In this document: piece by piece, positions 17,153 through 18,623 of the stretch
Layout of the letters: each line of letters starts with the position of its first letter
Position numbering within the stretch: position 1 is the first letter of the stretch
Source: Collinsella sp. An7
GTDB taxonomy: Bacteria > Actinomycetota > Coriobacteriia > Coriobacteriales > Coriobacteriaceae
Length of the DNA: 64,000 nucleotides
Assembly (NCBI RefSeq): GCF_002159335.1
Contig: NZ_NFHP01000001.1
Span: 62,001 to 126,000 of the forward strand
Direction of reading: 5' to 3'
Program-made: the position numbers and the translations under genes
Notes under the pieces: model-generated
Told to the model about the DNA's origin: nothing
Databases searched by the model: none
What the model saw: the letters and a program-made list of their open reading frames with translations, nothing else

Positions 17153-18286
17153 CTACCAGGCGGTTCGGATCTGGCCGAGCACGCGCTCCATTGTCGCGTC
17201 GATCTTGTCGCGCTTGAGCTCGCATTCCCAGATGATGATGACCGTCCAGCCGGCATCCTCGAGCGCCGCCACAGCCGCGCGGTCGCGCTCGACGTTACGG
17301 CGGAACTTCGCCTCCCAAAACTCGGTGTTGCGCTTGGGAACGCTCGGGTGGCAGTGCGGGCAGCGATGCCAGAAGCACCCGTTGATAAAGAGCGCGATCT
17401 TGCGCCCGGGGAAGGCGATGTCGGGCCGGCCGGGCGCCTTGGCCCACTGTAGGCGGTAGCCGGTGTATCCGGCGGCGCGTAGGTGCTGACGCACCAGAAG
17501 CTCGGGCTTGGTGTTGGCACGCTTGTTGCCCTGCATGGACTTGCGGATGGCAGCCCGGCGACGCACGAGTTCGACTTCGGCCTCGGAGAGGCCGGAGGTA
17601 TCGACACCGTCGAGCAGATTGGGTTTGACGCGCTTGGCGCGGCGCGTGCCGGAGCGCTTCTTGGTGGACTTGGCGGTGCGCTTTTTGGCGCGCGGTGCGG
17701 ATGAGGTGTTAGGGGAGGGCTCCTGGTCGGTGCCGGGGCCGCTGGTCGAGTCACCGGTGTCGGCGGCGGATGCAGTGTTGAGCGCGGCGTCGAGCGCTAC
17801 GGGGCCGGCGCCGTTGCCGGTTGGCTCCTCGCCGGTGGAGGCTGTTTTGGGCGCGGCGTCCCCGTCGCTTGGGTCTTGCGCACCGTCCTGCCCGCTGGCC
17901 ATAGCGGCAAGCGCGGCAACGAGCCCCTCGTCGGCGGGCATCCAGGTGAGGCTCGGCAGGTCTGCGAGCGCAACCCAACGCAGGTCGAGCTGACGGTCGG
18001 AGCGGGTGGGCTCACCTGCGGCGATGTGGCAGAAGAAGCACTCCATCGAAAGGTGGAAGTCAGGGTAGTCGTACTCAACGGTGTAGCAGGCGCTCGGATG
18101 GTCAACCTCTACGCCGAGCTCTTCGGCAAGCTCGCGACGGCAGGCATCTTCGGGCGACTCGCCGCGCTCGACCTTGCCGCCCGGGAACTCCCAGAGGCCG
18201 CGCATCTGCCCGTAGCCGCGCTGGACGGCGAGCACCTCGCTGTTGCCGCGGCGGATGATGCCCGCAGCCACATGGACGACCTTCAT
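17153..18286 (-). CDS. Fusion protein: NUDIX (MutT-like) hydrolase + Vsr mismatch endonuclease
   Basis: A 377-residue two-domain protein. Residues 1-135 are a MutT-like NUDIX hydrolase with a complete Nudix box at 37-59 (G-x5-E-x7-REL-x-EE-x-G-V), the type that cleans oxidised dGTP or similar nucleotides from the pool. Residues about 135-215 are a low-complexity Ala/Ser/Thr/Lys linker. Residues about 225-377 are a very-short-patch-repair endonuclease: RPDIAFPGRKIALFINGCFW with the metal-binding Asp near 289, HRCPHCHP, NTEFWEAK-x5-NVERD and GWTVIIIWECELK. Vsr nicks 5' of T in T:G mismatches. No cytosine methyltransferase is nearby. SD AGGAGG is six bases before the ATG at 18286; TATCAT (18349-18354, minus strand) may be the -10 box. 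Confidence 0.88.
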   Translation of the reverse strand: MKVVHVAAGIIRRGNSEVLAVQRGYGQMRGLWEFPGGKVERGESPEDACRRELAEELGVEVDHPSACYTVEYDYPDFHLSMECFFCHIAAGEPTRSDRQLDLRWVALADLPSLTWMPADEGLVAALAAMASGQDGAQDPSDGDAAPKTASTGEEPTGNGAGPVALDAALNTASAADTGDSTSGPGTDQEPSPNTSSAPRAKKRTAKSTKKRSGTRRAKRVKPNLLDGVDTSGLSEAEVELVRRRAAIRKSMQGNKRANTKPELLVRQHLRAAGYTGYRLQWAKAPGRPDIAFPGRKIALFINGCFWHRCPHCHPSVPKRNTEFWEAKFRRNVERDRAAVAALEDAGWTVIIIWECELKRDKIDATMERVLGQIRTAW

Positions 18287-18623
18287 GCGCACCTCCTTGC
18301 GTTTTTGTTGTTTAAGCGCCCCGTTGCCATGACGACAGGGGCCCGACCATGATAGCCGAGTTTACGGGTGTTGATCGGTTGGCAGGGTCGAGGGCTGCGG
18401 CTGCTGGCGTGCCCGCGGCTTGCACTGGCTCGCCCGCTGCCGCCCGCGTTCCGCATTTGGAGGGCGCCTGTCCCCGCGGGCCGGTATCATAGAGAGAAAA
18501 AGACGGCCGCTCGTGTGTCGTGCCGCTCGGGCACCCCGCGCCCGCGTTCGCCGCCGCGACCCGCAGCCGCCCGTACGGCGTCACACCCCGGCGCCTGCAT
18601 CCCGTTGCGAGAAAGGCTCTGCC
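18287..18623. promoter_or_regulatory. Divergent intergenic region between the MutT-Vsr gene and the TPR gene
   Basis: About 340 bp. Two TATCAT hexamers could be -10 boxes, one for each direction: minus strand at 18349-18354 and plus strand at 18485-18490. Neither has a convincing -35 box. The rest is GC-rich with no further structure that I recognise. Confidence 0.35.

Follow-up and report, generated by a model that had tools for sequence, protein, structure and literature searches.

A conserved Nudix-Vsr fusion protein of Coriobacteriaceae, a candidate two-headed mutation-avoidance enzyme

Results

The window analyzed here is a stretch of 64,000 nucleotides from Collinsella sp. An7. On its minus strand, a single open frame extends from an ATG at position 18286 to a stop codon ending at 17153 (17153..18286) and, according to the list of open reading frames and their translation, encodes a Nudix-Vsr fusion protein of 377 amino acids plus stop. 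A Shine-Dalgarno sequence, AGGAGG (18292..18297, minus strand), is located 5 bases ahead of this ATG. The gene is flanked by genes for a GNAT acetyltransferase and for a protein that weakly matches TPR; since both of these are on the opposite strand, the fusion gene stands alone.

Both domains of the translated product were recognized by Pfam (NUDIX, E 2e-20; Vsr, E 1e-17). The N-terminal MutT-type Nudix domain (residues 1-128; 17903..18286, minus strand) was delineated by Pfam/NCBIfam, AlphaFold and Foldseek, and contains the Nudix box GKVERGESPEDACRRELAEELGV (18110..18178, minus strand), which fits the consensus GX5EX7REUXEEXGU exactly; the final G of this consensus is often replaced in relatives. 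The C-terminal Vsr mismatch endonuclease domain (residues 243-372; 17171..17560, minus strand) was assigned by TIGR00632 and by alignment with E. coli Vsr. It has a putative zinc site of four Cys residues and scores 117.9 bits, above the curated cut-off of 97.85 for NCBIfam TIGR00632. In the AlphaFold model, two confident domains, with pLDDT mostly >90 in the Nudix block, are separated by a linker (residues 129-242; 17561..17902, minus strand) that is predicted to be disordered, with pLDDT <50 at residues 135-208, and that is variable as judged by domain spacing in relatives. Across 39 non-redundant fusions, 8 to 116 residues separate the domains, the window protein having the longest spacing, and in many relatives only 8-16 residues lie between the Nudix and Vsr domains. 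The low-complexity linker is no part of the design of the protein: it is longest here and nearly absent in other genomes.

A preliminary description of this DNA had placed a complete Nudix box and a complete Vsr domain in one frame, and both were seen by Pfam/NCBIfam and by residue alignment. It had also named an internal start as an observation that would speak against a fusion. No in-frame start with a Shine-Dalgarno sequence was found inside the gene and, because the domains of many relatives are in addition so closely spaced, an arrangement of two separate genes was ruled out. An artefact of assembly or annotation was ruled out by the 61 genomes that have the same architecture. The presence of Nudix and Vsr in one chain is thus confirmed as a genuine fusion.

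Alignment with the E. coli K-12 proteins showed that the Nudix residues G-x5-E-x7-RELxEE are present, as are the Vsr residues E25, D51, H69 and D97 together with the wedge M14/F67/W68; the position of E. coli Vsr H64 is occupied by Asn in the window protein. Mutated catalytic residues in relatives had been named as a second observation of the refuting kind; the residues examined, i.e., E52, E55 and E56 of the Nudix domain and positions E25, D51, H69 and D97 of Vsr, proved to be invariant in the 39 non-redundant fusions. Purifying selection acts on both domains, the median dN/dS in this set being about 0.21 for the Nudix domain and 0.15 for Vsr. These residues bear on an explanation in which the Nudix domain has no catalytic role and acts instead as a sensor or base reader, directing the nickase towards damaged DNA. 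MutY provides a precedent for such a reader, and Pfam NUDIX_4, which includes the C-terminal domain of MutY, also matches the fusion (68.9 bits). However, a reader would have no need of the metal-binding Nudix glutamates, which are retained in 39/39 fusions, and we regard this explanation as very improbable.

Profile searches detected Vsr in 66 of the 67 genomes of the GTDB family Coriobacteriaceae, always in single copy. As counted from translated loci and profile matches spanning both domains, Nudix and Vsr share one frame in 61 of these 67 species (genomes), and one more was read only in part. Vsr stands alone in all four genomes of one genus, and the sole species without it (G031) has lost the gene. 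The fusion is conserved in five genera with both heads intact and is carried by nearly all Collinsella and Enorma species; named carriers are Collinsella aerofaciens, C. stercoris, C. intestinalis, C. tanakaei, Enorma massiliensis and Candidatus Limicola. The domain order that was to be sought across Coriobacteriia therefore holds in one family but not across the class: among 398 class genomes, no fusion was found outside Coriobacteriaceae except in one Atopobiaceae genome, and none was found outside the family among 396 genomes of the phylum or in phages. A candidate fusion from a different class (G564) turned out to be Vsr only. A phage or plasmid origin was ruled out, the sole full-length match in the plasmid collection being a 900-kb Collinsella record.

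Many species have the gene at a common locus, with an ABC transporter pair and htpG as its neighbors, which argues for mainly vertical inheritance. In a tree of Vsr, the fused proteins form essentially one group, with the Atopobiaceae fusion apart; the placement of one further row (L147) inside the fused group was dismissed as a long-branch artefact. The fusion is old within Coriobacteriaceae, real and conserved. In the Atopobiaceae genome (G323), the fusion gene lies downstream of the neighbors of that genus's native stand-alone vsr, its Nudix part is Collinsella-like, and its Vsr part clusters with the Vsr proteins of Atopobiaceae. The simplest reading of these sequence relationships would be that the fusion gene was transferred and then recombined with the resident vsr. 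In the wider class the Nudix and Vsr activities are assigned to separate genes, so that the fusion is not needed for either activity.

Characterized Vsr enzymes are linked to 5-methylcytosine, and an association with a C5 methyltransferase is typical of the family, although it does not define it. On this background, and with C5 methyltransferases present in 46 of the 67 Coriobacteriaceae genomes, the protein might be the usual very-short-patch repair enzyme that accompanies cytosine methyltransferases, with a Nudix domain joined to it by accident and without a joint role. The genome distribution speaks against this. All 20 high-quality Coriobacteriaceae genomes that have no C5 methyltransferase keep Vsr (17 of the 20 are from genera that have the fusion), and conversely G031, without Vsr, does have a C5 methyltransferase. 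No C5 methyltransferase adjoins the fusion gene, as had already been noted from the window, and the search for dcm-like genes in the rest of the genome yielded a single C5 methylase, on another contig (C14:188417) beside a predicted type II restriction enzyme, i.e., in a separate type II restriction-modification locus. Because of these observations, a Dcm-type partnership cannot explain the retention of Vsr, and the Vsr studied here is not tied to a cytosine methyltransferase. Considering also that the fusion has been conserved across five genera, an accidental joining to a very-short-patch repair enzyme appears quite unlikely. The CCWGG/CTAGG signature of a Dcm-type system showed no deviation in the window. 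The tetranucleotide CTAG is present at 0.38 of expected in the window (1-64000), the lowest value of all tetranucleotides; low CTAG is common in bacteria and is not specific.

Three Nudix hydrolases serve as references for the substrate of the Nudix head: MutT, in which N119 holds 8-oxoG, MutT2, a (5-methyl-)dCTP hydrolase, and NudG, a 5-methyl-dCTP/CTP hydrolase. The head scores below the cut-off with both the MutT profile (TIGR00586; 92.1 bits, cut-off 97.9) and the NudG profile (PRK10546; 62.9 bits, cut-off 156). When the fusions are aligned with the E. coli proteins, 38 of the 39 carry Asp where MutT has N119, a feature shared with NudG. The best Foldseek match is Mycobacterium smegmatis MutT2, including its complex with 5-methyl-dCTP, with Bartonella MutT and others close behind. 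Since the fold is closest to MutT2, a role linked to cytosine is no less likely than one in 8-oxo-dGTP removal; the fold comparison and the pocket residue are suggestive only, and a cytosine-derived substrate may be proposed from them. In one divergent fusion (G058), the base-pocket Asp of nearly all other fusions is replaced by Asn, as in MutT.

The window genome contains two Nudix genes, the fusion and one with NudE, an ADP-compound hydrolase, as its best profile; the Nudix part of the fusion is the only MutT-like protein of this genome. In some Collinsella (L149, L150 and L151), the fusion is accompanied by a stand-alone Nudix protein that is of its type and has the WLPAD pocket, so the fused head is not the sole such Nudix everywhere. 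The PADLOC candidate PDC-S07 also matches the Nudix part; since E. coli MutT and NudG match it too, this is uninformative, and a role in anti-phage defense was rejected. Elsewhere in the genome (contig C16, L146:1021-2169), there is a gene for a MutY-like glycosylase of the HhH-GPD type that lacks both the iron-sulfur cluster and the Nudix C-domain; it has LETNV in place of the catalytic LDGNV of MutY, and from its sequence the activity seems doubtful.

A role against oxidized guanine had been suggested for the fusion in the preliminary description. In such a GO-type protector, the Nudix head would clear 8-oxo-dGTP as MutT does, and Vsr would nick T:G or an oxidation-derived mismatch. It would fit that the profile scores favor MutT over NudG (both below cut-off) and that no other MutT-like gene is present in the genome, and the degenerate appearance of the MutY-like protein might raise the need for protection. 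This role is nevertheless the less supported one, given the Asp at the N119 position and MutT2, solved with 5-methyl-dCTP, as the closest fold; moreover, Vsr families are known for T:G and not for 8-oxoG pairs. We consider a GO-type protector possible, if somewhat unlikely.

Coriobacteriia have been described as having neither NucS nor MutS-MutL, and it was proposed that species without either pathway may have further, unknown mismatch-repair pathways (PMC5290159); the present analysis extends the former observation to more genomes for MutS and NucS. In profile searches, on which these absences are based and in which positive controls worked, MutS above cut-off was found in none of the 67 family genomes and none of the 248 class genomes, and for NucS the 248 class genomes gave merely short or barely significant fragments, none of them convincing. 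Vsr is present in 165 of the 248 (161 of the 221 high-quality ones), that is, not in all. As MutS and NucS were not found in the class genomes, Vsr is the only recognized mismatch endonuclease left.

A Vsr enzyme from gonococci cuts T:G in all contexts (PMC6116569). Within two families, Vsr-positive genomes have a higher G+C than Vsr-negative ones (0.674 vs 0.558, p 0.002; 0.628 vs 0.504, p 0.006), in a coarse and small comparison in which no sample exceeds 15 kb, the genomes are not phylogenetically independent, and genome reduction acts as a confounding factor. Sampled G+C was 0.615 and 0.649 for Vsr-positive Collinsella vs 0.478 for G031 (L160). Higher G+C is the direction towards which repair of T:G to C:G would push. 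At its broadest, the interpretation would be that in Coriobacteriia, a class lacking MutS-MutL and NucS, Vsr is no longer bound to 5-methylcytosine and serves as a general repair nuclease for T:G (or replication errors), a third kind of prokaryotic mismatch repair that in Coriobacteriaceae was physically joined to dNTP-pool sanitation within a single protein. We judge this broad form to be unlikely.

Discussion

The architecture of the Nudix-Vsr fusion, its conservation, its catalytic residues and its distribution among genomes are established here. We infer from them the activities and substrates of the two heads and any advantage of their union in a single chain, and the reading that we favor, with somewhat better than even confidence, is that of a two-headed housekeeping enzyme of mutation avoidance, in which Nudix clears aberrant dNTPs of the cytosine type and Vsr nicks T:G without a methylase or MutS. 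The MutT/MutT2/NudG-type head would hydrolyze aberrant dNTPs prior to their entry into DNA, the most likely substrates being 5-methyl-dCTP, 5-hydroxy-dCTP and dCTP; 8-oxo-dGTP is the principal alternative. The Vsr head would bind T:G with its M/F/W residues wedged into the helix and nick 5' of the T, after which re-synthesis by a polymerase would restore C:G. Neither a dedicated cytosine methyltransferase nor MutS would be required for this, in hosts devoid of a MutS or NucS pathway. Enzymes that remove 5-methyl-dCTP from the nucleotide pool are known, the likely source of this nucleotide being degraded methylated DNA (PMC10742078). For this reason, one protein that bars 5-methylcytosine from DNA and also repairs its deamination product makes a coherent reading, in which the two heads may share a role.

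No report of a Nudix-Vsr fusion was found in the literature searched, and the protein is a new architecture built from two known enzymes. It ties the cleaning of the nucleotide pool and the repair of DNA to one protein, and as a conserved, single-copy Vsr that is independent of a methylase it is a concrete candidate for mismatch repair in culturable gut bacteria. The fusion matters because a whole class lacks the usual mismatch-repair proteins, and what makes it most interesting is the access it offers to the question of how that class copes without known mismatch repair.

Several known systems can be compared with the fusion. NucS/EndoMS, of the non-canonical mismatch repair of Actinobacteria, resembles it in role, by analogy, in that a lineage devoid of MutS-MutL has a mismatch endonuclease (PMC5290159), but belongs to a protein family different from Vsr and has no convincing representative in Coriobacteriia. 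E. coli MutT, the 8-oxo-dGTP diphosphatase, aligns with the fusion over the whole domain (E 6e-20); unlike MutT, the fusion has Asp instead of Asn119 and scores below the MutT equivalog cut-off. E. coli NudG/Orf135 shares with the fusion the Nudix catalytic residues and the Asp at the position of MutT N119, whereas it is a stand-alone protein and its profile scores the fusion lower than the MutT profile does. Mycobacterial MutT2 is likewise a stand-alone protein; it has 34-35% identity to the fusion and a TM-score of 0.88 over the Nudix domain, and the fold comparison suggests a likeness in substrate. Finally, relative to E. coli Vsr (V.EcoKDcm; TIGR00632/PF03852), the fusion has a Nudix domain attached, no dcm partner gene, Asn in place of H64 and a host without MutS, whereas E25, D51, H69, D97, M14, F67, W68 and the zinc-site cysteines are common to both.
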